A DNA stretch of 64,000 nucleotides, taken from assembly GCA_004297165.1 (NCBI GenBank), contig SCUJ01000011.1:192095-256094 (forward strand), given 5' to 3'. Position numbers and translations under genes: made by a program. Within the stretch, counting starts at the first letter, position 1. Each line of letters opens with the position of its first letter. Source of the stretch: Gammaproteobacteria bacterium (lineage in GTDB: Bacteria > Pseudomonadota > Gammaproteobacteria > Eutrophobiales > Eutrophobiaceae). Below, in pieces: positions 8,832 through 56,194 of the stretch. The notes under the pieces were generated by a model. The model was not told the DNA's origin. It saw only the letters and a list, made by a program, of their open reading frames with translations, and ran no database searches.

Positions 8832-11800
8832 TCACTGCGCCTCTGGCGATTGTACCAATTGGTTCCGGAGGAACGACTCCTTGAGACCCGCGTCGCCGAT
8901 GCATTCGCAGCCTTCCATGCGCGCGAGCATGACCCCGGATCGGTCCTGAAATTCGATCATCGCCGTCACCGCGAGCGGTGATTGTTTGCGGATCCGGGCG
9001 ATCACCCAGATCTCGTCCTTCGGCAGGCGGCGGCGATACTGGTGGTAGCTCTGGATCGCCGCGGGCAGACAGGGGGCGCCGCGTTGCTGCAGCGACCAGA
9101 GGATCAACAACTGGAAGGCCCCGTCCAACATCATGGGGTCCGCGAGCCAGTCGGATCGGATCGGGTGCCGGAGCCAGAGCGCGGGCGCGGGCGCGGCGGC
9201 GACCCGGCCCCGGATCCCCGCGGGTCCGCAGGCGCCGACCTCATGGATCGCCTCGAGCCCGGGGCCGTGAAAGAGACTGCCGTTGCCGTAGTATTCCCGC
9301 TTGCGGAAGGGATAGACCCCGGTGATTGGCGGTTCGTGCAGAGCGGGCGCCTCGGGGTACGCGCCGCCGAGGAGGATGATCGCCCCCGCGTGCAAGGTAT
9401 CGCCGCTGCGCAGTTCCACCGCGACCCGATCCTCGCCCTTGTCATTATGTTGTGGCGCGCCAGCGAGGATTTGCAGATCGATCCCCGTCCCGCCATCGAG
9501 CGTGACGCCCTTGTAGATCCTGAGGGCCTCGAAGCCTAGGAAATTCATCCCTGGGCAGGTGTGCATGGCCCCGTGCGCCAGCCATTCGCCGATGATCGCC
9601 GCCGGCAGCACGGCATGGCCGTTCATGATGTGCGACCCGAGGATGGGCGCGCTGTCGATATCCAGATGCCGCGCGAAGGCGGGTTGCAAACCCTGCGGCG
9701 TGGAGGTTTGTTCCGGCGGCGATGGCCGGTCCGCGGGCGGCGGCGAGGCCAGGATCACCTGCTCGACGGGTCCCGTGCCCGCGATCTCCCGCATGAGATA
9801 TTGCGCTCCAGCCGCGAGGGGGATCACCTCCATGCCTTCCGCGGTGAAGAGCCGCTTAAGTCCCGGCGTCACCATGCCGCCGTCCCACGGACCCCAGTTG
9901 ATCGAAAGCGCGCGGCAGGTTGGGTGATCGATCCGATACCGTTGCGAGAGCTTGTTGAGGGCCTCGTTGGCGGCGGCGTAATCCGCCTGACCCTTGCGTC
10001 CGAACCGCGCGGTGGACGACGAGAAGAGCGTGAGCAGCGCGAGTTCATCCGCCGTCGTCGCCGCGAGCAGGGCCCGCAATCCGTCCACCTTGGTGGACCA
10101 GACGGCGCGAAATTGTTCCAAGGTCTTGTCGGCGATCAGGGCATCGGCGAGCACGCCCGCGCCGTGGATCAGGGCGCTGATCGGCCCCAGTTCGTCGCGC
10201 GCGCGCTGGAGCGCCCCGGCAACCTGATCCAGGTCCCGGACATCGATGGACTCGTAGCGCACCCGCGCCCCGGTCTGCTTCATCCGTTGCAGGTTTGCCC
10301 GGATCTCGCGGGCGGCGAGGTGTTCGCGATAAATCCGTTTCAACTCGGCCGGGCTCAAGCGATCCGCATTATGCCGTTCGATGATCGCGCGCTTCAAGGC
10401 GACCTCATCCGGAATATCCTTGGCCCAGTCCGGTTCCGGTCCAGGGAGCGGACTGCGACCGAGCAGCAGGAGATTGAGGCCATAATCGCGGGCGAGCGCC
10501 GCGGCGATCTCGGCGGTGACCCCGCGCGCGCCGCCCGAGATGACCGCGGTGGAACCTGGCGGGAAGGGATTCGTCATGACGGGGACGAGCCGCTGTGGGA
10601 CTGATGCAAGCCGCAGCCCGGTCGCGCCTCGCGCGGTGATGCCGGTCTCCACCGGCCCGATCTTCAACAACTCCGTCGCGATGGCCGGCGCGAGTTCCAT
10701 CTCGTTGCCGTCGTCCGGCAGATCGATCTGCCGTACATGCATCTCGGGCCATTCCCTGCCTGCCGTCTTGACGAGCCCCGCGAGCCCGGCGGCCTCCGGT
10801 CTCATCCCGGACATCTCCTTGAGGCCGAAGGCGCCTCCCAGCCGGGTGATGCCCGCGAGCAATTGCAGGTGTGGGATGCGCTTTTTTATAAGCAAAAAAC
10901 TTTGCTCGATGAAAACGTCCGCGGCATCCACTGGCGCCGATATCACAAGACCGGCGGCCTCTGACTCAGTGGCCTGCTCGATACTCACCACTGCCGCAGC
11001 GACACCGGCGTCCCGCAAGGCCGCGACAAGGGCGTCAGGGAAGGCCGTGCCGTCGGCGCACACCTCGATCGCGAGAGGGTCAGTAAACGTCAATCCTGGC
11101 CTATCCGTCGGGAGCGGCACAAGTTCGAGGATGCCGCGATAGAGTTCCTGCGCCGGTGCGTGTTGCGGCATCTCCACCGGCGCTGTGACGGGAGCGGTCG
11201 AAACCGCCGTCTTGCCCCGGCCCAGGTGTTCGCCGATCTGCCGCAGGGTTTGCAGTCGTCCGAGGTCCTCGGGTGAGACAATCGGGGCCTCCGGCAGCCG
11301 CTCCTGGATGGCCGAGAGGATCTCCACGCGCTTGATGGAATCGATCCCCAGATCCGCATCGAGTTGCATGTCGAGGTTTAGCATCTCCACCGGATAACCG
11401 GTCTTCTCCGCGACCACGGCGAGCAGCGCCGCTTGCAGATGTTGTGCATCCGCAGTAGCTGTCAGCGTCTGCGTCACTGGCGCGCTGGACGTCCCGGCGC
11501 TCATGTGTTCGAGGATCTGCGCGAGCGTGTGCAGGCGGCCGAGGTCCTCCGGTGAAACAGTCGGGGCCTGCGGCAGGCGTTCCTGCAGGGCCGAGAGGAT
11601 CTCGACGCGCTTGATCGAATCGATCCCGAGGTCCGCATCGAGCTGCATATCGAGGTTCAACATCTCCACCGGATAACCGGTCTTCTCCGCCACCACCGCA
11701 AGCAGGGTCTCCTGTAGTTCGCGCGTGGGGCGCGCGATTGCGGTCCCGGCGCTGGCGGGCGGGATCGACGCCACGACTTCGGCGTCCGGATGGGTCGCCG

Positions 11801-14800
11801 CCATGAACTCGACGATGTGTTGCAGCAACTGGAAGGTACCGAGTTCCTCCGGCGGGATCTGCCGCATCCCCGGCACGCGCTCCTGCAGGGCCGAGAGGAT
11901 CTCGACGCGCTTGATGGAGTCGATCCCGAGGTCCGTATCGAGGCTCATGTTGAGACTCAACATCTCCAGGGGATAGCCGGTCTTTTCCGCGACCACCTCG
12001 AGCAGGATATTCTCATGCGGACGCGCGAACGGTTCCGGACGCGGCGCAGCGATGGCCGGTTGTTGCGGTGCGGCCGTTGTTATTGAGGCGTGCGCGGCCT
12101 GGACCGGCGCTGGCGTCATGGGTGCGCCAATAATTGCCTCCGTCATTCCAGCCTGACCCAACAGCAGGGCGCGGATCGCGCGTTGGGATTCCTCCATGCC
12201 CTCCAGATAACGGCGGTGCAATTCCGCCGTCTGTTCCTGCATCTTCTGCAGGGCCAGGATGCTCTCGGTGGCAAGCCGCGGGTCCGTCGCGGCGCCTGCG
12301 ACGGAGGGTCTCGCGCGTTCCGTAACCCTGATTTCCTTCACTGGCGCGGCAACGGCGGCAACCGGCGGGGTGGGTTTGCGCGGCAGCACATAATTCGCGC
12401 CGGTAAGCTGGACGCTCAGTTTCGGTTCGGGGTCCTGCCGGCGCTGCGCCAGGAATCCCTCATCCCACCGGGCGAGCTGGCACGGGTGACCGAGCGTGGC
12501 GATCTGCGCCAGCGCGCAGGCCAGATCGAACTGACCGGGGCGTTTGCCTTTCGAGGCGTCGAGCGCGATGGCGGCATGGGGTTTGTCGTGCAGGATGGAT
12601 TGCACGAGACCCGTTAGGATCGCCGACGGTCCCGCCTCGATAAATGTGTGGCGCCCGGCCGCGTGCATGTTTTCGATCAGTTTGACGAACTCGACCGGCC
12701 GCGCGAGCTGTCCGGCCAGCAGGGCCCGCGCCGCCGCCGGATCCTCGGGATAGGGCAGGGCCGTGGTGTTGGCGTAAACGGGGATCGTTGCCCCTTGCAT
12801 ATTAATGGAATCGAGAAACTCCGCGAGCGGTTGCTCGGCCGCGGCGACGAAACTGCTGTGGAAGGCCGCGGCGACCGGGAGGACCCGGGCCTGGATCTTG
12901 CGCTGTTTGAAGAGCGTCGCGACGCGTTCGATCTGCGCGGTGGCCCCGGACAGCACCAGTTGATTCGGGGCGTTGTGATTGGCGATGATGAGGTCGAGTT
13001 GCGCCTCCTCAATCGCGTTGAGAACAGTCGTGGTGTCAGCAATCACCGCGAGCATCCCGCCCTGATCGCCGCCCGGCCGTTGCATGAGCTCGCCCCGCCT
13101 GCGGGCGGCCAGCAGAAATTCGCGATCCTCATACACCCCGGCGCAACGCAGGGCCGTCAGTTCCCCGAAGCTGTGCCCGGCGCAGCTCTCCGGCTCGATG
13201 CCGAAATGGCGCAACACGCGCAACGCGCCGAGGCTCACCGCGCCGATCGCTGGCTGGGCGTTCGCGGTCTGCCGCAACGCGGCCTCGTTCTCCGCCCTCG
13301 CCGCGTCGGTGAATACGGGGATGGGATAGATGCGATCGCTGAGTCGCGCGTCCGCTCCCGCTGCATCGATCGCCCGATCGGCCTCCTCCAACGCCGCCAG
13401 GAATTCCGGGAACTGGCAGGCGAGGTCCCGCAACATCCCCGTGTATTGCGCCCCCTGGCCGGGGAAGAGCAACGCGAGTTGGCCGGGCGCGGGGCCCATG
13501 CCGAAGTACGCACCGTCTGTAGTGCGCCAGTGAGGTTCATCAGTCGCGAGTCTTGCCCGCGCGCCTTGTAGCAGCCCCGCGATCGAGGTCCGGTCCTGCT
13601 CCGCAATGAGCACGAGGCGGCAGGGCAGTGACGGATCGAATTCCCGCACGGACTCCGCGGCCAGGACCCGCAATTTTGCCCAGTCCTGCGTTGGATCGAT
13701 GCCCTGGATCCGCTGCTCGATAGCGGCCCGATCCGAGCCTCCGAAGGCAAAGACCAGCACGCGCCCATCCCACTCGATGGCGGGCTTGGCGTGCCCGTGC
13801 TCCTCCAGGACCGCGTGAAAGTTGCTGCCGCCGAAACCGAAGGCGCTCACCGCCGCGCGCCGGGGTTCTGTGGGGTCATGCACCCAGGGGCGTTTGATGG
13901 TATTCACGTACACGGGCGCCGTGCCGGGTTGCAGGGTCTCCAGCGGTTCATCCACCTTTAGGGTGGGCGGCAGGACCTTGTGTTGCAGGGCGAGCGCCAC
14001 CTTGATGAGACCGGCGACGCCGGCCGCGGCCTTGGTGTGACCGATCATCGACTTCACCGAACCGATGGCGCACCAGGTCCCCTTATCGCGCGCCTCGCGG
14101 TAGACCCCGGAGAGGGCCTCGGCCTCCACCGCATCCCCCACGCGCGTGCCCGTGCCGTGGGCCTCCACGAGTTCCACGGTCGCGGGCGAGACCCCCGCCT
14201 CGGCATAGGCCCGGCGCAGGGACTGCCGCTGACCGTTGGCGCTCGGCGCGTAGATCGCATTGCCCTTGCCGTCGCTGGAGGACCCGAGGCCGCGGATCGC
14301 GGCGTAGATCCTGTCGTGATCGCGTTCGGCATCGGCGAGACGTTTCAGGATGACGACCCCGAGCCCCTCGCCGAGGATCGTGCCGTCGCCCTCCTTGTGG
14401 AAGGGCCGGCTGTTCCCGGTCGGCGACAGCGCCGGGGTCTTGCTGAAACACATGTACATGAAGATGTCGTTGAAGGTGTCGAGTCCGCCGGTGATCGCCA
14501 TGTCGCAGCGGCCGCTGTGGAGTTCCAGGGCCGCCATGTGGATCGCGCCGAGCGAGCTCGCGCAGGCGGCGTCCACCACACAGTTGGTGCCGCCGAGATC
14601 GAAACGGTTGGCGATGCGCCCGGCGGCGACGTTGCCGAGCAGACCGGGGAAGGAGTTTTCCTGCCAGGGGACATAACCCTCGCCGATGCGGCGCACCACA
14701 TCCTCGGCCATGGCATCCGCGACCCCGGCATCCCTCAAGGCCCGCCGCCAGAGCGGATGGCCGAGGCGCGCCCCGAGCGGGATCACCAGCTCCAGCGTGC

Positions 14801-15203
14801 CGGTGACGCCGAGGATCACGCTCGCGCGGTCGCGATCGAAGGGCCGCCCGTCGTTGCTGTCCCGGCCGGTGGCATAACCCGCGTCCCGCAGGGCCTCGCG
14901 GGTGGCCACCAAGCCCAGCAACTGGGTGGTGTCGGTGGCCTCGATGTTGTTGGGGCTGATCCCGTAATAGAGCGGATCGAATGCCACCGGGCCGATAAAG
15001 CCGCCGCGCATGGCATAAGTCATGTCCGGGGTCTTCTGATCCGGATTGAAATAATCCGCCGGGTTCCAGTGCGTGGGCGGGACCTCGGTGATGGCGTCCA
15101 CGCCATCCCGGATGTTACGCCAGTAGGCGGCGGCGTCCGGAGCGCCTGGGAAGATGCAACCGATGCCGACGATCGCCAGCGGTTCGAATGTATGATCAGT
15201 CAT
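8832..15203 (-). CDS. pfaA: PfaA-type polyunsaturated lipid synthase, KS-AT-ACPx3-KR-DH
   Basis: A 2123-residue iterative type I synthase. Ketosynthase at 1-470 with active-site C214 (DAACASS), H349 and H389; acyltransferase at about 575-880 with GHSFGE (S678) and H782; three acyl carrier domains with LGIDSIKR serines at 1096, 1196 and 1289; ketoreductase at about 1545-1815 with NADPH loop SGGARGVT and catalytic S/Y1742/N1746; a C-terminal dehydratase-like double hotdog at about 1850-2100 (HxxxGHxxLP at H1858, LDGAFQ at D2027). The order matches PfaA of bacterial PUFA synthases, with fewer ACPs than most. Its ATG overlaps the pfaD stop by 8 bp. Chain length and product are not predictable from sequence. 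Confidence 0.95.
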   Translation of the reverse strand: MTDHTFEPLAIVGIGCIFPGAPDAAAYWRNIRDGVDAITEVPPTHWNPADYFNPDQKTPDMTYAMRGGFIGPVAFDPLYYGISPNNIEATDTTQLLGLVATREALRDAGYATGRDSNDGRPFDRDRASVILGVTGTLELVIPLGARLGHPLWRRALRDAGVADAMAEDVVRRIGEGYVPWQENSFPGLLGNVAAGRIANRFDLGGTNCVVDAACASSLGAIHMAALELHSGRCDMAITGGLDTFNDIFMYMCFSKTPALSPTGNSRPFHKEGDGTILGEGLGVVILKRLADAERDHDRIYAAIRGLGSSSDGKGNAIYAPSANGQRQSLRRAYAEAGVSPATVELVEAHGTGTRVGDAVEAEALSGVYREARDKGTWCAIGSVKSMIGHTKAAAGVAGLIKVALALQHKVLPPTLKVDEPLETLQPGTAPVYVNTIKRPWVHDPTEPRRAAVSAFGFGGSNFHAVLEEHGHAKPAIEWDGRVLVFAFGGSDRAAIEQRIQGIDPTQDWAKLRVLAAESVREFDPSLPCRLVLIAEQDRTSIAGLLQGARARLATDEPHWRTTDGAYFGMGPAPGQLALLFPGQGAQYTGMLRDLACQFPEFLAALEEADRAIDAAGADARLSDRIYPIPVFTDAARAENEAALRQTANAQPAIGAVSLGALRVLRHFGIEPESCAGHSFGELTALRCAGVYEDREFLLAARRRGELMQRPGGDQGGMLAVIADTTTVLNAIEEAQLDLIIANHNAPNQLVLSGATAQIERVATLFKQRKIQARVLPVAAAFHSSFVAAAEQPLAEFLDSINMQGATIPVYANTTALPYPEDPAAARALLAGQLARPVEFVKLIENMHAAGRHTFIEAGPSAILTGLVQSILHDKPHAAIALDASKGKRPGQFDLACALAQIATLGHPCQLARWDEGFLAQRRQDPEPKLSVQLTGANYVLPRKPTPPVAAVAAPVKEIRVTERARPSVAGAATDPRLATESILALQKMQEQTAELHRRYLEGMEESQRAIRALLLGQAGMTEAIIGAPMTPAPVQAAHASITTAAPQQPAIAAPRPEPFARPHENILLEVVAEKTGYPLEMLSLNMSLDTDLGIDSIKRVEILSALQERVPGMRQIPPEELGTFQLLQHIVEFMAATHPDAEVVASIPPASAGTAIARPTRELQETLLAVVAEKTGYPVEMLNLDMQLDADLGIDSIKRVEILSALQERLPQAPTVSPEDLGRLHTLAQILEHMSAGTSSAPVTQTLTATADAQHLQAALLAVVAEKTGYPVEMLNLDMQLDADLGIDSIKRVEILSAIQERLPEAPIVSPEDLGRLQTLRQIGEHLGRGKTAVSTAPVTAPVEMPQHAPAQELYRGILELVPLPTDRPGLTFTDPLAIEVCADGTAFPDALVAALRDAGVAAAVVSIEQATESEAAGLVISAPVDAADVFIEQSFLLIKKRIPHLQLLAGITRLGGAFGLKEMSGMRPEAAGLAGLVKTAGREWPEMHVRQIDLPDDGNEMELAPAIATELLKIGPVETGITARGATGLRLASVPQRLVPVMTNPFPPGSTAVISGGARGVTAEIAAALARDYGLNLLLLGRSPLPGPEPDWAKDIPDEVALKRAIIERHNADRLSPAELKRIYREHLAAREIRANLQRMKQTGARVRYESIDVRDLDQVAGALQRARDELGPISALIHGAGVLADALIADKTLEQFRAVWSTKVDGLRALLAATTADELALLTLFSSSTARFGRKGQADYAAANEALNKLSQRYRIDHPTCRALSINWGPWDGGMVTPGLKRLFTAEGMEVIPLAAGAQYLMREIAGTGPVEQVILASPPPADRPSPPEQTSTPQGLQPAFARHLDIDSAPILGSHIMNGHAVLPAAIIGEWLAHGAMHTCPGMNFLGFEALRIYKGVTLDGGTGIDLQILAGAPQHNDKGEDRVAVELRSGDTLHAGAIILLGGAYPEAPALHEPPITGVYPFRKREYYGNGSLFHGPGLEAIHEVGACGPAGIRGRVAAAPAPALWLRHPIRSDWLADPMMLDGAFQLLILWSLQQRGAPCLPAAIQSYHQYRRRLPKDEIWVIARIRKQSPLAVTAMIEFQDRSGVMLARMEGCECIGDAGLKESFLRNQLVQSPEAQ

Positions 15204-30217: not shown

Positions 30218-30223
30218 TTGGCC
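30155..30223 (+). other. attC recombination site of cassette 1
   Basis: A 69-bp site: R'' GCCCAAC (30155-30161), near-palindromic arms GAGAGGACATGCCCCGGC and GCCGGGACATGTCTCTC around an AA centre, and R' GTTGGCC (30217-30223). The imperfect pairing with extrahelical bases is typical of attC hairpins. The next gene starts 15 bp after R', the normal cassette spacing. Confidence 0.85.
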
Positions 30224-30237
30224 GTAAGCGAGCGCGC

Positions 30238-30894: not shown

Positions 30895-30899
30895 CGAAT

Positions 30900-30987
30900 G
30901 GCCAACAAGATCACTGGACCGAACGCGGGCGGGCCACGTCAGTTTCCAATTCGGATGTCACTGGCCGCCCGAGTCGGTCAGTTCTGG
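30900..30987 (+). other. Probable attC of cassette 2, 3' end damaged
   Basis: GGCCAAC at 30900-30906 is the exact complement of the GTTGGCC that opens cassette 2, as expected for its R'' box. It is followed by complementary arms (ACTGGACCG...GGGCGGGCC against GGCCGCCCGAGTCGGTCAGT). No convincing GTTRRRY R' box follows. A lone R''-like GCCCAAC sits at 31019-31025, 14 bp before the methylase gene. Confidence 0.5.
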
Positions 30988-31039
30988 CGTCAGCCCGAGT
31001 TAACCACACAGTAACATCGCCCAACAATCACATCTTCCA

Positions 31040-31696
31040 ATGAACTACGTCAAATCCAAACAGCGCGTCGCCGACCACGGGGAGGTCTTCACTCCGGCGT
31101 GGATGGTCGAGGCGATGCTCGATCTGGTGAAGGACGAGACGGAGCGCATTGACTCCCGCTTCCTGGAGCCGGCGTGCGGGAGCGGCAACTTCCTCGTGCA
31201 GATCCTGAGGCGCAAGCTCGCCGCCGTGGAACTCAGGTACGGCAAGTCCGACTTCGAGCGACGGCACTACGCGATCCTCGCGCTGATGTGCATCTACGGT
31301 ATCGAGCTGTTGGCGGACAACATCGCCGAGTGCCGGGCAAACGTGTTGGAAATCCTCGCCGAGTACCTGAATCTGAACGAGTCGGACGAACTCTATCGCG
31401 CCGCGACCTACGTGCTGTCACAAAACCTCGTGCACGGCGACGCGCTGACGATGCGTACACACGGGGGGCAGCCGATCGCCTTTGCCGAGTGGGGCTACCT
31501 GGGCAAGGGCAGGTTCCAGCGCCGCGACTTTCGCTTCGACGTTCTCACTGGTTCGTCGGCCTTCAGCGCGGAAGGATCGCTCTTCGCCCACCTCGGCAAG
31601 CACGAGATCTTCACGCCGACGAAGACCTACCTGCCGATGACGGTGAGCGAGCTGGCCGCAGCCGCTTGCGGCGACGCGCCGAAGGAGGCCGTATGA
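31040..31696 (+). CDS. Small N6-adenine methylase-like subunit
   Basis: A 218-residue protein with the N6-methylase N-terminal element HGEVFTPAWMVEAMLDLV and SAM-binding motif I FLEPACGSGNFLVQIL. The catalytic motif IV (D/N-PP-Y/F) is not found; the matching region reads FDVLTGSSAFS. It is therefore probably a non-catalytic or regulatory partner of the larger methylase that follows with an ATGA overlap. First gene of a four-gene operon. No clear Shine-Dalgarno. Confidence 0.75.
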   Translation: MNYVKSKQRVADHGEVFTPAWMVEAMLDLVKDETERIDSRFLEPACGSGNFLVQILRRKLAAVELRYGKSDFERRHYAILALMCIYGIELLADNIAECRANVLEILAEYLNLNESDELYRAATYVLSQNLVHGDALTMRTHGGQPIAFAEWGYLGKGRFQRRDFRFDVLTGSSAFSAEGSLFAHLGKHEIFTPTKTYLPMTVSELAAAACGDAPKEAV

Positions 31697-34495: not shown

Positions 34496-34502
34496 GGCCA
34501 CC

Positions 34503-37028
<2,526 letters not shown>

Positions 37029-44700: not shown

Positions 44701-47700
44701 TTGAAACAACCCCCCACCATAGCCATCGTAGGCATCGGCGGCGTCTTTCCCGGCGCGGAGGGTCTGGAGACCTTCCAGGAGAACATCATGCTGGCCAGGG
44801 ACTCCGTGCGAGAACCGCCCGCGGGCCGCTGGTTGCTGGACCTCGCGGATGTCTATGACCCGTCGGGTCCCCAACCGGACCGGATCTATTCCCGGCGCGC
44901 CTGTTTCGTCGATGACTTCGGGTTCGACGACCCCGACCTCAAGGCGGATCCCCAATGGCTCGCCACCCTCGATCCGATGTATCGCCTGCTGCTCAAGGCG
45001 GGATGCGCGGTGTGGCGTGACGGGGTCACTGCAAACGTTGACCGTAGAAGGGCGGGCATCATCATCGGCAATATCGTCCTGCCCACGGCCGGGGCCGCCG
45101 CGCTCGCCGAAGAGATTGTCGGGCCGCTGCTTGAGCGCTCCATCTCCAGCCGCGTCTCTCCAACGGAGCACAAGGTAAACCGCCTCAACCGTTATGTCGC
45201 CGGCCTGCCGGCGGGACTGCTCGCGCGCGCGCTCGGCATCGGCGGCGGCAGTTACACCCTGGATGCGGCCTGCGCCTCCTCGCTTTACGCCATCAAGTAC
45301 GCCGTGGACGAATTACAGGCGGGACGCGCCGACCTCATGCTGGCCGGCGGTCTGTCCCGGCCCGATTCGCTCTACACCCAGATGGGTTTTTCCGCGCTGC
45401 ACGCGATCTCGCGGAGCGGCCGTTGCGCACCCTTCGATCGCAGGGCCGACGGCCTGGTGGTCGGCGAGGGGGCCGGGCTGGTCATGCTCAAACGCCTGGA
45501 GGACGCCTTGCGGGACGGCGATCGCATCTACGCAACCATCGCCGGGATCGGGCTCTCCAACGATATCGAGGGCAACCTCATGTCGCCCGCGAGCGAAGGC
45601 CAGTTGCGCGCCATGCGCGCCGCCTATGCAGCGGCCGGCTGGCGGCCGGGCGTTGTGGATCTGATCGAATGCCACGGCACCGGCACGCCGGTGGGCGACG
45701 CCGTGGAGTTCAACAGCCTCCGCACCTTGTGGCGGGATGAGTCGCGCGAACGGAGGTGCATCATCGGCTCGGTCAAGAGCAACGTCGGCCATCTGCTCAC
45801 CGCTGCCGGCGCGGCCGGACTCATCAAGACCCTGCTCGCGATGCAAGCGGGACGATTGCCGCCGACCGCGAACTTCGAGGCCCCGGGCGCGAACATCGAT
45901 CTCGAATATAGTCCATTCGCCGTGCTCGCCGAGGCCCGACCCTGGGAGCAACGAGACGCCGCAACGCCGCGCCGGGCGGCGGTGAGCGCCTTCGGCTTCG
46001 GCGGGATCAACGCCCATCTCCTGATCGAGGAGTGGCGCGAGGCGCCCGTGGCGTACCCGCGTTTGCAACAACAGACTGAGCCCCCGCCGCCCATCGCCGT
46101 GGTGGGCATGGCCGCCTGCTTCGGACCCTGGCGCGACCTCGCCGCCATACGGGGGCGCGTGTTCGATCGCGAAATGAACTCGCCCACGGCGCAGCCCGTG
46201 ACGGGTTGGGGTCATGACACCGGGTTGCGCGGATTCCTTATGGATAAGGTGGAGGTCCCGGTGGGGCGCTTCCGGATCCCGCCAACGGAATTGCAGGACA
46301 TGCTGCCGCAGCAGTTGCTGATGCTGCAAGTCGCGGCCGACGCCCTTGCCGCCGCGGGTATTTCTGTCCAAGGGGAGGAGGCGCTGCCGGATGCAGGTGT
46401 CTTCATCGGCATCGGGCTCGACCTCAACACCACGAATTTCCACCTGCGCTGGTCGCTGTTAAACCGGGCGCGGGAATGGCGGCGTGACATGGGCCTTGCC
46501 CTCGATGAGCGGGAGTTTCAACAGTGGGTGACGGAACTGCGGGACGCCTGCCATCCGCCGCTCACCGCAAACCGTACCATGGGCGCGCTGGGCGGGATCG
46601 TCGCGAGCCGGATCGCGCGGGCCTTCCGAATCGGCGGGCCGTCCTTCACGGTCGCGAACGAGGAGGCCTCCGGCTTGCGGGCCCTGGCCATGGGCGTGCG
46701 CGCCCTGCAACGCGGCGAGATCCGTGCCGCCATCGTCGGGGCCGTGGACCTTGCCGGCGACATCCGGGCCGTGCTCGCGCAGGCGGACACAAGGCCATTC
46801 ACGAATCAAACGCAGTGCGCGCCATTCGGTCAAGAGGCGGACGGCAGTCTGGTGGGCGAGGGCGCGGCGGCCTTCGTGCTGAAGACGCTCGCGGACGCCG
46901 AACGCGACGGCGATGTCATACATGCGGTGATCGCGGGCCTCGGCGCGGCCTCCGGCGGGGACATGGGGGCTGTCATACCGCCCGCGGCTGTTTGCGGCGC
47001 AGCCATGCGCGCCGCCTGCCATGACGCCGGGATAGAACCCGGCGCGATTGGACACATCGAGGCCCACGGCAGTGCCTGTCCCGCCGAGGATGCCGAAGAG
47101 ATCGCTGCCCTTGAGGAATTTCTACCTTCACGCGATAACCGCGCGCCGGTCAGTCTCGGCAGCGCGATGGCGGATTTCGGCCATTGCGGCGCGGCCGCCG
47201 GCATGGCGGCCCTCACCCGCGCCATCCTCTGTCTGGAGGAACGCCAGCAGGCGTCCCTGCGCGGCTGGCATCAACAACCCTTGCCGAAGCTGCATGAATG
47301 CCGGGACCGCCTCGCGCCGCCGGCTTTCGCGCGGCCCTGGCTGCGCAACCGCGCGGACGGACCGCGGCGTGTGCTGGTGAACAATCTTGGCAGCGACGGC
47401 AACTGCCTCAGCGCGGCGCTGGCCCAACATGATGGGAACGCCGCATTTCAAGAAACAGGGCTGCGGCCCGGCGATCCCGGCCTCTTTTCCGTGAACGGCG
47501 CGGACACGACAGAGTTGTTGCGGGGCCTCGGGGAACTTGCGGGTCTCGACCGCAATACCGGCGCCGGGGAACTCGCCGCCCGTTGGTGGCGCAGCGGCCG
47601 TTACCGGGAAGGCGCGCGCTCCATCAACCTCATCGCAAGCGATCCCAGAGAACTCGCCGCCCTGATCGATAAGGCGAGATTAGCGATCGAAACCGGAATC

Positions 47701-50700
47701 CCCGGCGCAGATCCCAATCTCCATTACCTCCCGGTCCCGGAAGCGAACCGGGGCGGGCTCGCCTTCGTCTTCCCTGGCTCCGGGAATCATTTTCCCGGCA
47801 TGGGGCGCGAGGCGGGCCTGCGCTGGCCGCAGGTCCTCAAGCGGCTGGATGACGAGAACGGACAGCTCGCGGCGCAATTCGCGGGCGGGGGTTTCTGGCG
47901 CGATAACGCCGGAGATGATTTCGACTGTCGCGATTTCATCTTCGGCCAGGTCTGGTTCGGGACCTTCATGAGCGATGTGATCCGGCTCTTCGGGATCGAG
48001 CCCGAGGCCATCATTGGCTACAGCCTCGGGGAGACGGCGGGGCTCTTCGCGACCCGCGCCTGGACCGACCGTGACCTCATGCTGCAACGTATCAAGGGGA
48101 GCCGCCTGTTCACCCATGAACTCGCCGGGCCCTGCGAGGCTGCGCGCCGCCTGTGGGGCGCGCATGACGACGAGCCGATTCAATGGCAGACCGGCGTCGT
48201 CCCTGTCCCGGCGGACCGTCTGCGCGAGGCCCTGCAAGGCAAGTCGCGGGTTTATCTTTCGATCGTCAACACCGATACCGAGTGCGTCATCGGCGGCGAG
48301 CGCCGCGCCGTGCAGGAACTGGTCGCGGCGCTTGGCTGCAACTTTCATCCCGTGGAGGGCGTCACCAGCGTGCATTGCGAGGTGGCAAGATCCGTCGCCA
48401 AGGAATACCGCGACCTGCATCTCTTTCCCACCACGCCGCCTGCGGGCGTCCGCTTCTACAGCGGGATCCTGGGGCGCGCATATCCGGTGGATCAAGACAG
48501 CGCGGCCGACTCCATCGTCGGCCAGGCCGTCGCCCCCTTCGATTTCACGCGTGTGATTCGTTCCGCCTGGGACGACGGGATCCGGACCTTCATCGAGCTG
48601 GGACCTGGCGCCACCTGCACGCGCATGATCGGGCAGATCCTGAACGACCGTCCGCACCGGGCGCAGGCCATCTCCGCGCGTGGTCAGAATGAGGTCCTGA
48701 ACATCCTGCGGGCGCTTGCGTTCCTGCGCGCCTCCGGCAGGCCCGTGGATCTGGCCCCGCTCTATCCGGCCAGGGAGACGCTGCGCGACCCCTGGGAGGG
48801 ACACGCCAGGATCAGCATCTCCACCACTCAACCTGAGATCAGGTTGCCGTTGCCCGCGCTGCGCGATCAACCCGCCAGGGTCGCGGCGCAGGCAGACACC
48901 GGGATCGCACAGATCCTCACCGCGTTCCAGCGGGTGGAGGCGGCGAAGGCGGAATCCCACGCGGCCTTCCTCAGGGTCGCGAACGGCATCACGACAACGC
49001 TCGCGCAGGCGTACGCCTTGCAGCGGGAGATCGGCGGCGGCGCCGCTGTCCCGGTCGAATCCGGGCCGCAATTATCGGCAGTCACGCAGACATCAGACAT
49101 GCGCAGAGAGGTCCGCTTCGATCGCGGGCAATGTCTGGAATTCGCCCGGGGTTCCATCGGCCGGATGCTCGGCCCGGATTACGCGGCCAGCGACGTGCAT
49201 CCCACCCGCGTGCGCCTGCCCGACGAGCCCCTGATGCTGGTGGACCGCATCCTGACCGTCGAAGGCGAACCACACGCCTTGGGGACGGGCCGGGTGGTCA
49301 CGGAACACGATGTCCTCCCCGGGGCCTGGTACCTGGATCACAACCGCATCCCCACCTGTATTGCAGTCGAGGCCGGCCAGGCGGACCTGTTTCTCTCGGC
49401 CTGGCTCGGCATCGATGAGCGCACGCGGGGACTTGCGGTCTATCGGCTGCTGGATGCGGAGATCACCCTGCACGGCCCGCTGCCGCAACCGGGGCAGACC
49501 ATCCGCTACGACATCCACATCGATCATTTCTTCCGCCAGGGCGAGACCTGGCTGTTCCGTTTTCATTTCGATGGGACTGTGGATGGAAAACCCTTGATCA
49601 CCATGCGCAACGGATGCGCCGGATTCTTCAGCGCCGCGGAACTTGAGGCCGGGCGCGGGATCGTGCTGACCCGGCTCGAACAGCAACCGCAACCAGGCAA
49701 GCGTCCCGCGGACTGGAAACAGCTCGCGCCCATGCGCCGTGAGCGTTACGACGCTGCGCAGGTCGAGGCGTTGCGCCGGGGCGACCTCGCCGACTGTTTC
49801 GGTCCGGACTTCGCGAGGCTTCCCCTCAAACAGCCCTCCGGCCTGCCCGGCGGGCGCATGACCCTGGTCCACCGGGTCCTCGATCTGGACCCGGAAGGCG
49901 GGCGTTACGGGATCGGCCTCATCACCGGCGAGGCGGATATCGGGACGGACGACTGGTTCCTGACCTGCCATTTCGTCGATGACCGGGTGATGCCCGGCAC
50001 GCTGATGTACGAGTGCTGCCTGCACACATTGCGGGTCTTCCTGATGCGCCTCGGCTGGGTGGGGGAAACGGCGGAGGCGGCCTATGAGCCCATGCCCGGC
50101 GTCAGCAGCCGGTTGAAGTGCCGCGGGCAGGTCATCCCCGGTACGCGGACCGTTCAATACGCCATCACGCTGAAGGAATACGGCTACGATGCCACCGGAA
50201 CCCCATACGCCATCGCCGATGCCCTGATGTCCGCCGATGGCCGGCCGATCGTGCAGATGAGCGACATGTCCCTGCGCTTGAGCGGACTGCAACGTGACCG
50301 TATCGAGGCATTGTGGGCTAAAGCATCCGGGGAAAGTGAGCATGTGCCAACCTCGCCAGGAAAGGCGCTCTTCGATCAGGCCTCCATCACCGAGTTCGCG
50401 ATAGGTAAACCTTCCCTGGCCTTCGGCGATCGCTACCGTGTTTTTGACGATAAGCGCGTGATCGCCCGCCTGCCAAGGCCCCCCTTCCAGTTCCTGGATC
50501 GCATTGTCGCGATCGAGAATTGCCGGCCGTGGGAACTGCGCCCCGGCGGGGAGATTGTGGCCGAATATGACGTGCCGCCCGAGGCCTGGTATTTCCGCGA
50601 GGCGCGGCGGCCCCACATGCCGTTCGCCGTCCTGCTGGAGGTGGCCCTGCAACCCTGCGGCTGGCTCGCGGCCTATCTAGGATCCGCCCTCACGAGCGAG

Positions 50701-51417
50701 GTGGACCTGTGCTTCCGCAACCTGGGCGGCAGCGCCCGGCAATTGCTCCCCGTCGGCCCGGATGCCGGTACGCTCTCGACCCGGATCCGCATCACCCGGG
50801 CCTCGGCCTCCGGCGGCATGCTGATCCAGAATTACGACTTCGAGGTATCCGGTCCGCGGGGAGTGATTTATCAGGGCGACACCTATTTCGGATTCTTCTC
50901 CAGGGAGGCCCTGGCCAATCAGGTCGGTCTGCGGGAGGTATCATTGGCCAACATCCCCGCCGGCAGCGAAGGTTGTGAGTATCCGTCCGATCCGCCCTTC
51001 CCCGGCCCCATGCTGCGGATGATCGATGCCATCGATCACTACGACCCGAAGGGCGGGGCGCGGGGACTCGGATTGATCCAGGGCAGCGTGAGAGTCAACC
51101 CCGGCGCCTGGTTCTTCAAGGCGCATTTCCATCAGGACCCGGTCTGGCCCGGTTCGCTCGGGCTCGAATCCTTTCTGCAGATCCTCGAATATGCCGCCCG
51201 GAGACATTGGGCCGATGCCGGGGCGATGCAATTGACCGGGACTCATCAATGGACCTACCGCGGGCAGATCCTGCCCACGGACAGCAAGGTAACGGTCCAG
51301 GCTGAAATCACCGCGCTCGATCACGCCGCCCGGTCCTTGAGCGCGGACGGTCTCCTGTCGGTGGATGGGAGAATTATCTATCGAATGCAGGATTTTCAGC
51401 TTAAACTTGCCCCCTGA
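44701..51417 (+). CDS. pfaC: PfaC-type polyunsaturated lipid synthase, KS-CLF-AT-DH-DH
   Basis: A 2238-residue subunit. Ketosynthase at 1-450 with C191, H325 and H364; chain-length-factor domain at about 463-860 in which the active-site cysteine is replaced (VANEEASGLRAL, E654-E655); acyltransferase at about 1018-1345 with GYSLGE (S1108); then two double-hotdog FabA-like dehydratase regions, about 1500-1865 and 1925-2235. Catalytic-type motifs HFxxDxxMPGxL (H1757) and HFxxDPxWPGSLGLE (H2142) occur in the second hotdog of each pair. The AT inside PfaC resembles myxobacterial Pfa3 rather than marine systems with a separate PfaB. The only usable start is a TTG. oleA begins 2 bp after the stop codon. 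Confidence 0.93.
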   Translation: MKQPPTIAIVGIGGVFPGAEGLETFQENIMLARDSVREPPAGRWLLDLADVYDPSGPQPDRIYSRRACFVDDFGFDDPDLKADPQWLATLDPMYRLLLKAGCAVWRDGVTANVDRRRAGIIIGNIVLPTAGAAALAEEIVGPLLERSISSRVSPTEHKVNRLNRYVAGLPAGLLARALGIGGGSYTLDAACASSLYAIKYAVDELQAGRADLMLAGGLSRPDSLYTQMGFSALHAISRSGRCAPFDRRADGLVVGEGAGLVMLKRLEDALRDGDRIYATIAGIGLSNDIEGNLMSPASEGQLRAMRAAYAAAGWRPGVVDLIECHGTGTPVGDAVEFNSLRTLWRDESRERRCIIGSVKSNVGHLLTAAGAAGLIKTLLAMQAGRLPPTANFEAPGANIDLEYSPFAVLAEARPWEQRDAATPRRAAVSAFGFGGINAHLLIEEWREAPVAYPRLQQQTEPPPPIAVVGMAACFGPWRDLAAIRGRVFDREMNSPTAQPVTGWGHDTGLRGFLMDKVEVPVGRFRIPPTELQDMLPQQLLMLQVAADALAAAGISVQGEEALPDAGVFIGIGLDLNTTNFHLRWSLLNRAREWRRDMGLALDEREFQQWVTELRDACHPPLTANRTMGALGGIVASRIARAFRIGGPSFTVANEEASGLRALAMGVRALQRGEIRAAIVGAVDLAGDIRAVLAQADTRPFTNQTQCAPFGQEADGSLVGEGAAAFVLKTLADAERDGDVIHAVIAGLGAASGGDMGAVIPPAAVCGAAMRAACHDAGIEPGAIGHIEAHGSACPAEDAEEIAALEEFLPSRDNRAPVSLGSAMADFGHCGAAAGMAALTRAILCLEERQQASLRGWHQQPLPKLHECRDRLAPPAFARPWLRNRADGPRRVLVNNLGSDGNCLSAALAQHDGNAAFQETGLRPGDPGLFSVNGADTTELLRGLGELAGLDRNTGAGELAARWWRSGRYREGARSINLIASDPRELAALIDKARLAIETGIPGADPNLHYLPVPEANRGGLAFVFPGSGNHFPGMGREAGLRWPQVLKRLDDENGQLAAQFAGGGFWRDNAGDDFDCRDFIFGQVWFGTFMSDVIRLFGIEPEAIIGYSLGETAGLFATRAWTDRDLMLQRIKGSRLFTHELAGPCEAARRLWGAHDDEPIQWQTGVVPVPADRLREALQGKSRVYLSIVNTDTECVIGGERRAVQELVAALGCNFHPVEGVTSVHCEVARSVAKEYRDLHLFPTTPPAGVRFYSGILGRAYPVDQDSAADSIVGQAVAPFDFTRVIRSAWDDGIRTFIELGPGATCTRMIGQILNDRPHRAQAISARGQNEVLNILRALAFLRASGRPVDLAPLYPARETLRDPWEGHARISISTTQPEIRLPLPALRDQPARVAAQADTGIAQILTAFQRVEAAKAESHAAFLRVANGITTTLAQAYALQREIGGGAAVPVESGPQLSAVTQTSDMRREVRFDRGQCLEFARGSIGRMLGPDYAASDVHPTRVRLPDEPLMLVDRILTVEGEPHALGTGRVVTEHDVLPGAWYLDHNRIPTCIAVEAGQADLFLSAWLGIDERTRGLAVYRLLDAEITLHGPLPQPGQTIRYDIHIDHFFRQGETWLFRFHFDGTVDGKPLITMRNGCAGFFSAAELEAGRGIVLTRLEQQPQPGKRPADWKQLAPMRRERYDAAQVEALRRGDLADCFGPDFARLPLKQPSGLPGGRMTLVHRVLDLDPEGGRYGIGLITGEADIGTDDWFLTCHFVDDRVMPGTLMYECCLHTLRVFLMRLGWVGETAEAAYEPMPGVSSRLKCRGQVIPGTRTVQYAITLKEYGYDATGTPYAIADALMSADGRPIVQMSDMSLRLSGLQRDRIEALWAKASGESEHVPTSPGKALFDQASITEFAIGKPSLAFGDRYRVFDDKRVIARLPRPPFQFLDRIVAIENCRPWELRPGGEIVAEYDVPPEAWYFREARRPHMPFAVLLEVALQPCGWLAAYLGSALTSEVDLCFRNLGGSARQLLPVGPDAGTLSTRIRITRASASGGMLIQNYDFEVSGPRGVIYQGDTYFGFFSREALANQVGLREVSLANIPAGSEGCEYPSDPPFPGPMLRMIDAIDHYDPKGGARGLGLIQGSVRVNPGAWFFKAHFHQDPVWPGSLGLESFLQILEYAARRHWADAGAMQLTGTHQWTYRGQILPTDSKVTVQAEITALDHAARSLSADGLLSVDGRIIYRMQDFQLKLAP

Positions 51418-51418
51418 T

Positions 51419-52618
51419 ATGCATTACAAACGCGTCTACATGGAATCCATCGGCTACGAGCTGCCGCCGGTCGTCGTGACCTCGGAGGAGCTCGAAAACC
51501 GGCTCGCGCCCATGTATGACGCCCTGCATATCAGCCACGGCCAGCTCGAAGCCCTGACCGGCATCACCGAACGGCGCTGGTGGGAGAAGGGGCACTCGCT
51601 CTCGGATGGGGCGACCGTGGCGGCGCAAAAGGCCATGCAGCAATCCAACGTCCGGCCGAATGACATCGAGGCCCTGATCTACACGGGCGTCTGCCGGGAG
51701 AACTACGAACCGGCCACCGCCTGCGCGGTCGCCGCCAAGCTCGGCATCCAGAGCGATGCCTATGTCTACGACATCTCGAATGCCTGCCTCGGCACCATGA
51801 ACGGGATCATCGACATCGCCAACCGCATCGAGCTCAAACAGATCCGGGCGGGCCTCGTGGTCTCCTGCGAATCCGCCCGCGAGATCGTGGATATCATGAT
51901 CGACCGCATGCTCGCCGAGAAGACCATGAAGATCTACACCACCTCGCTCGCCACCCTGACCGGGGGCTCCGGGGCGGCCGCAGTCCTGCTCACGGACGGC
52001 AGCTTCAGCAACAAGACGGCGCACCGGCTCATCGGCGAGACCACCAAGTCCGCGCCGGAACATCACAAGCTGTGCCGCTGGGGCGTGACGCTCACCCCGG
52101 TAGGGATTGGCAAGATGATGTTCTCGCCGGACAAACTGCTCGCCGCGATCGAGGAGGTCACCGAGCCGAACGCCATACCGTCGGCACTCAAGGAGTTGAT
52201 GACCAGCGAGAGGCTGCCGCCGGCGATCGCGAACATCATGCCCTCGGAATCGCTGCCGGCCGCGCTGTCCGAATTCATGGCCACGGACTCGGTCGCCGTC
52301 CTCAAGCACGGGGCGATCCTCGGCGTACGGACCTGGGCCGCGTTCCTCAAGAAGATGGGGTGGGCCCGGGACCAGGTGGATCGGGTCATTTGTCATCAGG
52401 TGGGCGAGGGCCATCGCGACACCATCTTGAAGGAACTCGGCATCGCCCCTGAAAAGGATTTCAGCACCTATCGCTATCTCGGCAATATCGGCACGGTTTC
52501 GCTGCCGCTCACGGCCGCCATCGCCGAACAACGGCAGTTCCTGAAGCCGGGGGACCGCGTCGGCTTCCTCGGGATCGGCAGCGGGCTCAATTGTTTGATG
52601 ATCGGCTGGGAGTGGTAG
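51419..52618 (+). CDS. oleA: OleA-type thiolase: head-to-head acyl condensing enzyme
   Basis: A 399-residue thiolase-fold enzyme that condenses two fatty acyl thioesters to a beta-keto acid. From the ATG at 51419, E97, C123 (NACLGTMNG), H326 and N356 match the catalytic set of Xanthomonas OleA (E117, C143, H285, N315 from memory); Glu-Cys and His-Asn spacings are identical. The Cys-His spacing is 61 residues longer. The insert, about 230-292, contains three 13-residue repeats (253-291) of form LPxA(L/I)xx(L/I/F)Mx(S/T)(E/D)x and a degenerate fourth before them. The start follows the pfaC stop by one base, so translation is coupled. Confidence 0.9.
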   Translation: MHYKRVYMESIGYELPPVVVTSEELENRLAPMYDALHISHGQLEALTGITERRWWEKGHSLSDGATVAAQKAMQQSNVRPNDIEALIYTGVCRENYEPATACAVAAKLGIQSDAYVYDISNACLGTMNGIIDIANRIELKQIRAGLVVSCESAREIVDIMIDRMLAEKTMKIYTTSLATLTGGSGAAAVLLTDGSFSNKTAHRLIGETTKSAPEHHKLCRWGVTLTPVGIGKMMFSPDKLLAAIEEVTEPNAIPSALKELMTSERLPPAIANIMPSESLPAALSEFMATDSVAVLKHGAILGVRTWAAFLKKMGWARDQVDRVICHQVGEGHRDTILKELGIAPEKDFSTYRYLGNIGTVSLPLTAAIAEQRQFLKPGDRVGFLGIGSGLNCLMIGWEW

Positions 52619-52671
52619 CGGTCCGGGCAACAAAAACTACCCGAGCCTGTAAGGCGAGGGGGTACTCTTTC

Positions 52672-53565
52672 ATGAATCTCCCCGAGTACCCCTTCGCCAG
52701 CCAGTACCACACGGTCAACGGTTTCCGGATGCATTATCTCGACGAGGGCCCGCGAGAAGGGGAGATACTCCTCATGCTGCATGGCAACCCGAGCTGGTCC
52801 TATCTCTACCGCAAGCCCGTGCTCGCCTGGCGCGACCGCTACCGTTGCATCGTCCCGGATCACATCGGCATGGGACTTTCGGAGAAACCCACAGCCGCGG
52901 CTTACCCATACACCCTGGCAAGACGCATCGACGACCTCGATGCGCTCATGGAGATGCTGGCGCCCGATAAGCCGCTGACCCTAATCCTGCACGACTGGGG
53001 CGGCATGATCGGCATGGGTTACGCCCTGCGGCATCCCGCACGGATCAAACGCCTGGTGGTGATGAATACCGCCGCCTTTCATCTGCCGTCCAACATCCCG
53101 CTGCCCTGGCAACTGCGCCTCGCGCGCCTGCCGGTGATAGGTCCCTTGCTCATCCGGGGCGCGAATGCCTTCTGCCGGGGCGCGATCGCCTGCGGCGTGA
53201 CGCGCGATCCGGCGCCGCCCGAGATTAAGACTGCCTTCCTCGCACCCTATGCCTCCTGGCGCGAGCGGCTTGCCGTCATGCACTTCGTAGAGGACATCCC
53301 GCTCGGGCCAGACGAGCCCTCATACGCGACGGTGAGCGCGATCGAACAGGGCCTGCCCCGTTTTGTGAATTTGCCGATATTGTTCTGCTGGGGCATGCGC
53401 GATTTTATCTTCGACGGCCGTTTCCTCGCGGCATGGATCGAACGATTTCCCGAGGCCGAGACACTGCGGATAGAAGATGCCGGACACTATCTCATGGAAG
53501 ACGCCGCGGCTGAGGTGATCGCCGCGATAAGCGCGTTCCTGAAACGCAATCCCCTTAACGCATGA
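52672..53565 (+). CDS. oleB: OleB-type beta-lactone decarboxylase
   Basis: A 297-residue alpha/beta hydrolase of the haloalkane-dehalogenase-like group. HGNPSWSYLYR forms the oxyanion region, D108 (LILHDWGG) is the nucleophile and H272 (DAGHYLMED) the catalytic histidine, close to their positions in known OleB proteins. OleB removes CO2 from the cis-beta-lactone to give the cis-olefin. ATG at 52672 has GAGGGGG upstream. It lies 53 bp after oleA and overlaps oleC by 4 bp (ATGA). Confidence 0.9.
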   Translation: MNLPEYPFASQYHTVNGFRMHYLDEGPREGEILLMLHGNPSWSYLYRKPVLAWRDRYRCIVPDHIGMGLSEKPTAAAYPYTLARRIDDLDALMEMLAPDKPLTLILHDWGGMIGMGYALRHPARIKRLVVMNTAAFHLPSNIPLPWQLRLARLPVIGPLLIRGANAFCRGAIACGVTRDPAPPEIKTAFLAPYASWRERLAVMHFVEDIPLGPDEPSYATVSAIEQGLPRFVNLPILFCWGMRDFIFDGRFLAAWIERFPEAETLRIEDAGHYLMEDAAAEVIAAISAFLKRNPLNA

Positions 53566-55217
53566 ACGAAACGGAGAACAACAGCAATATCGCCGCGAGC
53601 CTGATACGGATGGCCCGGCAGCAACCCGAGGCAGCCGCGGTGATCATGGACAGGCCCGGAGGCCGGGGACGAAAGGTCACTTATCGGGAACTCGATGAGG
53701 ACAGCGATCAACTCGCCAGAGGACTGAAGGCGATTGGTATCGGCAAAGGTACGCGCACCGCCCTCATGCTGCCGCCATCTCCGGATTTCTTCGCCCTGGT
53801 CTTTGCCATCTTCAAGCTGGGCGCCATCCTCGTCGCGGTCGATCCGGGTCTGGGCGTCAGGGGTTTAAAACAATGCCTGAAAAACGCAGAGCCCGCGGCC
53901 TTCATCGGGATCGCTAAGGCGCATCTCGCCCGCATCCTATTGCGCTGGGATGCCGAAGGTCTGCGCCACCGGATCGTCACCGGCGCGATCGGCCTCCCTG
54001 GGCTTGTAAGCCTGAATGAGATACGCAGACTTGGCGCCGGCAGCAGCGCCCCGATCCTGGAACCTGCCGTGGCTGACACCCATGCCGCGATACTCTTTAC
54101 CAGCGGCAGCACCGGCGCGCCCAAGGGCGTGCTCTATACCCACGGCAATTTCTCGGCGCAGATCGAGGCCCTGCGTCGGGAATTCGGGATTTGCCCAGGG
54201 GAGGTGGACCTCGCCACCTTTCCCCTCTTTGCCCTCTTTGCCCCGGCACTCGGCATGACCGCGGTGATCCCGGTCATGGATTTCACCCGCCCCGGCGGCG
54301 TCAATCCCGAAAGCATACTCAAACCCATCGAACGCTATGGAATCACCAACATGTTCGGCTCGCCGGCCCTGCTGGATCGCGTCAGTCGCTGGGCTGACCC
54401 GCGCGGGATTAAATTCTCAGGCGTGCGCCGGGTGCTGTCCGCGGGCGCGCCGGTGCATGCCCGGATCATGGAGCGGTTTCGCTCCCTGCTCGCGCCGGGC
54501 GTCCAGGTCTACTCCGCCTATGGGGCGACTGAGTCTCTGCCGGTCAGCATAATCGGCAGCGATGCGGTGCAGGGCGAGACGGGCAACCTCACGGCGGAAG
54601 GCAAGGGTGTGTGCGTCGGCCGTCCGGTGGCGGGCATCGAGGTGCGCATCATCGCGCTGACCGACGTCGCGATCCCCGTCTGGCGGGACGACCTGGCGCT
54701 TGCGCCGAACATAATAGGCGAGATCGTCGTCCGGGGACCGCAGGTCACCCAGGGTTATTACAACAACGCGGCGGCCACGGCGCTCTCCAAGATCTATACA
54801 GCGGCGGGGGACTGGTATCACCGGATGGGTGATGTAGGTTATCTGGACGAACAAGGCCGGCTCTGGTTCTGTGGCCGCAAGGGTCAGCGGGTGGAGACCG
54901 GAGAGCAGACGCTCTTCACCATCCCGTGCGAGGGCGTGTTCAACACCCATCCCGAGGTAAAGCGAACCGCGCTGGTCGGCGTGCCCGCAGGGGCTCCCAT
55001 CCGCCGACCGGCTCTCTGCGTGGAGCTTGAGGCGTCCGCCCGCGGCAGGGATCTGTCTGCGATCCGGAACGAGCTGTTGACCCTGGGGGCGAAGTACAGC
55101 CACACCCGGTCGATCCGCGAGATCCTGTTTCACGACCGCTTCCCCGTGGATATCCGGCACAACGCCAAGATCGATCGCGACCGGCTCTCCCGCTGGGCGG
55201 AGCGGAAATTGCGATGA
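53562..55217 (+). CDS. oleC: OleC-type beta-lactone synthetase (AMP-forming ligase family)
   Basis: A 551-residue member of the ANL adenylating superfamily. The P-loop-like AILFTSGSTGAPKG is at about 176-189; YSAYGATESLP and GDVGYLDEQGRLWFCGRKGQRV are the later adenylation motifs; K of DIRHNAKIDRDRL is near the C-terminus. In the Ole pathway this enzyme closes the beta-hydroxy acid from OleD to a beta-lactone. Position between oleB and oleD with ATGA overlaps on both sides supports the assignment over a generic acyl-CoA ligase. Confidence 0.9.
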   Translation: MNETENNSNIAASLIRMARQQPEAAAVIMDRPGGRGRKVTYRELDEDSDQLARGLKAIGIGKGTRTALMLPPSPDFFALVFAIFKLGAILVAVDPGLGVRGLKQCLKNAEPAAFIGIAKAHLARILLRWDAEGLRHRIVTGAIGLPGLVSLNEIRRLGAGSSAPILEPAVADTHAAILFTSGSTGAPKGVLYTHGNFSAQIEALRREFGICPGEVDLATFPLFALFAPALGMTAVIPVMDFTRPGGVNPESILKPIERYGITNMFGSPALLDRVSRWADPRGIKFSGVRRVLSAGAPVHARIMERFRSLLAPGVQVYSAYGATESLPVSIIGSDAVQGETGNLTAEGKGVCVGRPVAGIEVRIIALTDVAIPVWRDDLALAPNIIGEIVVRGPQVTQGYYNNAAATALSKIYTAAGDWYHRMGDVGYLDEQGRLWFCGRKGQRVETGEQTLFTIPCEGVFNTHPEVKRTALVGVPAGAPIRRPALCVELEASARGRDLSAIRNELLTLGAKYSHTRSIREILFHDRFPVDIRHNAKIDRDRLSRWAERKLR

Positions 55218-56194
55218 AGGTCCTGGTCACGGGCGGCGGCGGATTTCTCGGCAGGGCCATTGTCCGGGCGCTGCGCGCGCGCGGCGATCAGGTGGTCGCC
55301 ATGCAGCGCGGCGAATATCCGGAACTCCAGGCGCTTGGCGTTGAGGTTATTCGGGGCGACCTCGGCGATAGCGCCCTCCTGCGCCAGGCCGGCAAGGGCT
55401 GCGATCTCGCGCTGCATGTCGCCGGCAAGACCGGGGTCTGGGGCGACTATCGCGAGTTCCATCACTGCAATGTCACGGCGACCCGCAATGTGATCGAGAC
55501 CTGCCTTGAAAACGGCATCGGGCGACTGGTCCATACCAGCACGCCGAGCGTCGTCTTCGCCGGCCGCGATGAAGACCCCATCGACGAATCCGCGCCCTAT
55601 CCGGCGCGCTTCCTCAACCACTATCAGGCCACCAAGGCGGAGGCGGAAAGGCTCGTGCTCGCGGCCAACGGCGAGAGGCTCGCGACGCTCGCCCTGCGTC
55701 CGCACCTGATCTGGGGGCCCGGCGATCCCCACCTGATCCGTCGGGTGGTCGAGCGCGCGCGCTCGGGCAAACTGCGGCTCGTGAAAACGAATAAAAAGGT
55801 GGATGTCACCTTCATCGACAACGCCGTTCATGCGCATCTCCTCGCGGGAGATGCCTTGCGGCCGGGCGCTCCGTGCGTGGGCAAGGTCTATTTCATCTCC
55901 GATGGCGCGCCGCAACCGCTTTATATCACCATCAACGAGATCCTCGCGGCGCACGGTCTGCCGCCGGTCAGGAATTTCATCTCGCCCGCGCTGGCCTATC
56001 TCGCGGGATCGGTCTTCGAACTGGCGTACCGTCTGTTAGGGATAGAGCGGGAACCGCTGCTCACGCGTTTCGTCGCGCGTCAGTTGAGTTGCGCCCACTG
56101 GTACGACCTTGGCGCGGCGCGGCGCGACCTCGGCTACCAGCCTGTGGTCGGTCATCAGGAAGCCCTGGCCAGACTCAGGCGGGCCGTTGCCTGA
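55214..56194 (+). CDS. oleD: OleD-type 2-alkyl-3-oxoalkanoate reductase
   Basis: A 326-residue extended SDR of the 3-beta-HSD-like family. VTGGGGFLG (5-13) binds NADPH; STPSVVF with Y137 and K141 (YQATK) form the active site. OleD reduces the unstable OleA beta-keto acid to the beta-hydroxy acid before OleC. It overlaps oleC by 4 bp. The following PPTase gene starts 7 bp after its stop. Confidence 0.9.
   Translation: MKVLVTGGGGFLGRAIVRALRARGDQVVAMQRGEYPELQALGVEVIRGDLGDSALLRQAGKGCDLALHVAGKTGVWGDYREFHHCNVTATRNVIETCLENGIGRLVHTSTPSVVFAGRDEDPIDESAPYPARFLNHYQATKAEAERLVLAANGERLATLALRPHLIWGPGDPHLIRRVVERARSGKLRLVKTNKKVDVTFIDNAVHAHLLAGDALRPGAPCVGKVYFISDGAPQPLYITINEILAAHGLPPVRNFISPALAYLAGSVFELAYRLLGIEREPLLTRFVARQLSCAHWYDLGAARRDLGYQPVVGHQEALARLRRAVA

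Follow-up and report, generated by a model that had tools for sequence, protein, structure and literature searches.

The window, by which we mean the whole 64,000-nucleotide stretch of DNA analysed here, encodes an OleA protein directly behind a pfaC-type gene. OleA couples two fatty-acid chains, the opening step of long hydrocarbon synthesis. The oleA ATG (51419) is 1 base past the pfaC stop codon, and oleB (52672), oleC (53562) and oleD (55214) are all nearby.

8832..15203, minus strand: pfaA-type gene with three ACP domains (KS-AT-3xACP-KR-DH; Pfam)
28900-30153: Shedu SduA C-terminal domain gene
31174-33342: Eco57I-type methylase gene
34386-37028: ResIII helicase domain gene
44701..51417, plus strand: pfaC-type gene (KS-KS/CLF-AT-4x FabA-like), directly upstream of oleA (Pfam; also in relatives' loci)
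51419..52618, plus strand: oleA coding sequence, 399 residues, OleA/PRK09258 family (ORF, translation, NF006720, fold match)
52672..53565, plus strand: oleB, alpha/beta hydrolase (Pfam; conserved order)
53562..55217, plus strand: oleC, AMP-binding enzyme (Pfam; conserved order)
55214..56194, plus strand: oleD, 3Beta_HSD/NAD-dependent reductase (Pfam; conserved order)

The pfa cluster is split (8832-16950 and 44701-56194), with pfaA and an adjoining pfaD-like gene on the opposite strand from pfaC-oleABCD and ~28 kb away. Probable defence genes (28900-37028) lie between the two parts. Unlike the split cluster of the window, loci L037, L043 and L044 have pfaA-like sequence immediately upstream of pfaC. 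PfaA of the window is presumed to be the acyl donor.

The OleA protein matches the NF006720 profile over its full length (residues 1-399 on profile positions 1-338) with 479 bits against a cut-off of 285. Crystal structures of X. campestris (Xc) OleA (PDB 3row, 4ku3 and others) are the top fold matches of its predicted model, with a TM-score of 0.80 by query and 0.93 by target. The catalytic residues, assigned by alignment, are all invariant in the alignment of relatives:

51707..51709, plus strand: catalytic Glu97, equivalent to Xc E117 (invariant column; PDB OleA alignment)
51785..51787, plus strand: catalytic Cys123, equivalent to Xc C143 (invariant column)
52394..52396, plus strand: catalytic His326, equivalent to Xc H285 (invariant column)
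52484..52486, plus strand: catalytic Asn356, equivalent to Xc N315 (invariant column)

The Glu-Cys (26) and His-Asn (30) spacings are those of the OleA family, including X. campestris OleA with its same E-C-H-N set, and the Cys-His spacing is 203. In Xanthomonas OleA, numbered E117/C143/H285, the Cys-His distance is 142. An earlier note on this DNA was correct that the first two spacings equal those of Xanthomonas and that the third is 61 residues longer. A downstream oleB is common to the Xc-type relatives; the Xc-type loci examined are without pfaC. On sequence grounds the window OleA is most likely an ordinary head-to-head condensing thiolase, predicted to join a pair of acyl thioesters into a beta-keto acid, and most likely belongs to an oleABCD pathway, linked to pfa, that makes polyunsaturated long-chain hydrocarbon. 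The enzyme itself is already known, and what is new is a repeat-expanded loop. A plasmid search for near relatives of this OleA returned nothing but distant FabH-like matches.

The phmmer alignment to the solved Xanthomonas OleA in the PDB breaks exactly at query residues 222|286. The loop that precedes the conserved M-x-T-D-S motif comprises 65 residues in the window protein vs 4 in Xanthomonas OleA, whose sequence as used in local alignments matches the PDB sequence over the parts compared. The loop and the repeat units found in it are:

52082..52276, plus strand: expanded loop, residues 222-286, 65 residues, from LCRW to MATDS (phmmer alignment break; relatives' alignments)
52094..52132, plus strand: weak unit A, residues 226-238, TPVGIGKMMFSPD, phase shifted by one residue (unit profile)
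52136..52174, plus strand: degenerate unit B, residues 240-252, LLAAIEEVTEPNA (unit profile)
52175..52213, plus strand: unit C, residues 253-265, IPSALKELMTSER (direct sequence)
52214..52252, plus strand: unit D, residues 266-278, LPPAIANIMPSES (direct sequence)
52253..52291, plus strand: unit E, residues 279-291, LPAALSEFMATDS, with a C-terminal half (MxTDS) native to OleA (unit profile; relatives' alignments)

The 13-residue repeat is real. The self-similarity of residues 224-291 at a shift of 13 exceeds that of every shuffle (0/2000 reach it), and in the mean of 28 relatives none of 1000 column permutations, corrected over shifts 5-30, gives as high a 13-residue period, which has a harmonic at 26. 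The three exact 13-residue units that the earlier note had read at residues 253-291 are present as described, with pairwise identities of 5/13. A profile built from these three clear units ranks residues 240-252 4th among 387 positions, in support of the degenerate unit also proposed there, and ranks residues 226-238 6th, a weak unit that had been missed. Besides the three clear units, the array thus holds a degenerate and a weak one. Unit E, the last, is mostly native sequence, since MxTDS is found in OleAs that have no insert. Short-loop relatives have a segment resembling unit E at the native site (DPAALIQMMVTDS in L068, LASQFTQFMSTDS in L077). A search for DNA-level repeats within the insert saw none, so the duplications are probably old rather than recent. 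We infer that a 13-residue piece was tandemly duplicated long ago and that the loop grew in this way.

The size of the gain depends on the reference. The ordinary loop of pfa-linked OleA is 10-17 residues, most commonly 13, and 13 is the length in every one of the 15 OleAs sampled from the Desulfuromonadales phylum. The 61-residue insert of the earlier note therefore holds relative to Xanthomonas OleA (~61), and relative to the typical pfa-linked OleA the lineage-specific gain is ~52 residues, or four units. By alignment, the window loop is about five times the usual length. Pfa-linked OleAs from Desulfuromonadales, Planctomycetota and Verrucomicrobiota (for example L052, L131-L145, L045, L046) are about 55-68% identical to the window protein over the N-terminal 224 residues and share its pfaC-oleA-oleB order, but their loops (10-17 residues, mostly 13) are without a repeat array.

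Overall, the loop site spans 4 to 67 residues. Expanded loops at this site are 27 (L067), 53 (L061-L064), 64 (L048) and 65-67 residues long, the last in the window's family and in three Planctomycetota that carry a close form of the window loop. The four Planctomycetota proteins L061-L064, also beside pfaC, resemble the window OleA in an LP-A-hydrophobic repeat flavour (LLPAAVNKV.., ILPSAV.., LMPQLV.., LLPARL..; OleA residues about 222-274) but differ from it in the sequence and length of the loop, and they occupy a separate branch of the core tree. The Gemmataceae protein L048 (10001-11194) has a Gly/Ala-rich loop apparently unrelated in sequence to that of the window. Lengths among pfa-linked loops include 13, 27, 53 and 65, each close to a multiple of 13, a pattern that is suggestive only because ordinary pfa-type loops also measure 10, 12, 14, 16 and 17. 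In a core-only OleA tree built with FastTree, the expanded loops occupy four separate places, all pfaC-linked; because several branch supports are modest, independent expansions can be counted only approximately. OleAs with 65/67-residue loops form one clade that takes in the gammaproteobacterial family and the three Planctomycetota, which suggests transfer between the two.

The variability of this site raises the possibility that the expansion is nearly neutral, a slippage-tolerant surface loop lengthened by duplication and retained since it folds harmlessly. The unrelated expansion in L048 fits such an account, as does nonsynonymous change in the insert at about twice the core rate. Within the family, however, OleA is 399 residues long in 27/27 members from eight genera, with the loop length fixed, and none of the 30 insert-bearing proteins departs from P227, P237, P250, P254, P267, P275, P280, L240, M261 or L279. 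For close pairs dN/dS is about 0.08 in the insert vs 0.04 in the core, and mean identity is 62% vs 84%. The insert is thus under purifying selection and is kept, though under a looser constraint than the enzyme core. Given the fixed length, the invariant prolines and hydrophobics and the low dN/dS, we regard near-neutrality as rather unlikely.

An AlphaFold model from 27 sequences has a well-predicted core (mean pLDDT over the whole chain 82.6), with the inserted segment between two strands (219-225 and 283-289). Helices are predicted at residues 227-234, 237-246, 255-262, 268-271 and 279-282, roughly one per unit, at pLDDT 44-63. A model from insert-bearing sequences alone was poor (mean pLDDT 52.5) with similar helix positions. 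Read as helices, the three clear units of the window protein are amphipathic (p 0.008-0.022), which supports the short amphipathic helices of the earlier note for these units, with helix prediction at low confidence. Among the PDB sequence and fold matches, no solved structure shows such an arm or comes from a Pfa-linked OleA.

Conserved hydrophobic faces on the short helices, together with the usual presence of oleBCD downstream of oleA in insert-bearing loci, could mean that the arm contacts OleB, OleC, OleD or the membrane and aids transfer of the poorly soluble beta-keto acid or hydrocarbon. Yet the helices of the window protein are uncharged or acidic and lack the positive charge that lipid-binding helices usually carry, and their membrane-binding score is low. 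For the OleBCD partners, short-loop OleAs share the same neighbours, and at L111-L113, which encode a 53-residue loop, no oleB, oleC or oleD was found within ~18 kb. Across loci, presence of the insert shows no consistent correlation with oleBCD adjacency. Such a contact appears improbable to us.

We compared 106 OleA loci, 76 with pfaC and 30 without (none within about 1.5-10 kb each side of oleA), a sample clustered by descent, so that the figures are counts and not independent events. All 36 loops of more than 20 residues are in pfaC loci, and none is among the 30 others. The earlier note had held that the same insert in many OleAs without pfa linkage would remove its docking idea, and no such protein appears among these 30. 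The converse does not hold: 40 of the 76 pfaC-linked OleAs, from Planctomycetota, Verrucomicrobiota and the Desulfuromonadales phylum, lack the expansion (loops 10-17). Confinement to pfa-linked OleA is therefore seen in one direction, and the arm fails as a hallmark that is present there and absent elsewhere. In a survey of the gammaproteobacterial class, 9/369 genomes were above threshold and the long loop occurred only in the window's own family. The Planctomycetota phylum survey gave an OleA-like match in 111/392 genomes and a near-continuous match in seven. OleA was found in 3/289 Verrucomicrobiota genomes and 15/297 genomes of the Desulfuromonadales phylum, the insert in none of these.

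This distribution bears on the proposal that the arm docks acyl carrier domains of the Pfa synthase and so steers polyunsaturated acyl-ACP to OleA. The window encodes a PfaA with three ACPs, and OleA has been inferred to receive its acyl groups straight from the Pfa ACPs, a contact deduced from the effect of an inactive mutant in Shewanella (PMC6463001). However, Shewanella pealeana OleA, a 38-kDa protein, yields a Pfa-derived 31:8 ketone when co-expressed with pfaA-E (PMC6463001). The Shewanella pealeana/oneidensis enzymes use Pfa-derived acyl chains and have their catalytic cysteine at C123, the same number as in the window OleA, but, compared by size, have no room for the arm because they are only 38 kDa (PMC6463001). 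The arm is therefore dispensable for cooperation with Pfa. The charge of the arm also argues against docking: the proposed ACP contact of OleA is a positive patch (PMC6463001), yet the arm is net acidic in the window protein (K+R 4, D+E 8) and hence ill-suited to grip an acidic ACP. No positive surface complementary to acidic ACP was found in the window insert; charge is mixed in relatives. Because of the pfaC-linked OleAs without the expansion and the Shewanella enzyme, obligatory docking is not supported, and the idea survives only as a lineage-specific refinement, which we consider to have little likelihood. Most pfa-linked OleA lineages manage without the arm, so the chemistry cannot depend on it. 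As an accessory add-on, the expansion is neither a requirement for pfa linkage nor its hallmark.

Our preferred reading, held with a confidence that falls a little short of even, is that amphipathic helices form an accessory arm or lid next to the mouth of the channel, derived from ancient tandem duplication. A 13-residue piece would have expanded an OleA surface loop from the usual ~13 residues to 65, giving a string of short proline-capped amphipathic helices. From the FabH fold, the residue following this loop would be expected near the pantetheine tunnel. By homology with FabH-fold enzymes, the loop is probably near the mouth of the substrate channel; a literature search on the geometry of the corresponding FabH loop found no paper. 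The helices could then form an arm or lid beside the pantetheine/acyl entrance, their hydrophobic faces packing against OleA or a partner, and may tune the holding and hand-over of long polyunsaturated chains or of the beta-keto product.

The arm or lid is favoured by the period, the fixed length, the invariant residues, the low dN/dS, the amphipathicity and the per-unit helices, and also by the loop lengths near multiples of 13, the unit-E-like native segments and the four pfaC-linked places on the tree. It is weakened by the low pLDDT of the arm, by the faster evolution of the insert than of the core, and by the many pfa-linked lineages and the solved structures that are without an arm. A bolder version, which we think very improbable, makes the arm a modular adaptor of helices. 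It would have been extended in steps of 13 residues in several separate lineages and would match OleA to one Pfa megasynthase, or to how large the acyl product of that synthase is, with copy number tuning the channelling of PUFA synthesis into hydrocarbon. The series of 13-, 27-, 53- and 65-residue loops beside the presumed channel mouth offers a natural set for swap and truncation work.

Four OleAs outside pfa loci (L102, L106, L122 and L124) have 17-42 extra residues in another region of the alignment and not in this loop. At L051 (10001-11051) the OleA match is broken into two parts that lie in different frames (query 1-206 and 211-399), which suggests that near the loop there is a frameshift or an error of assembly.
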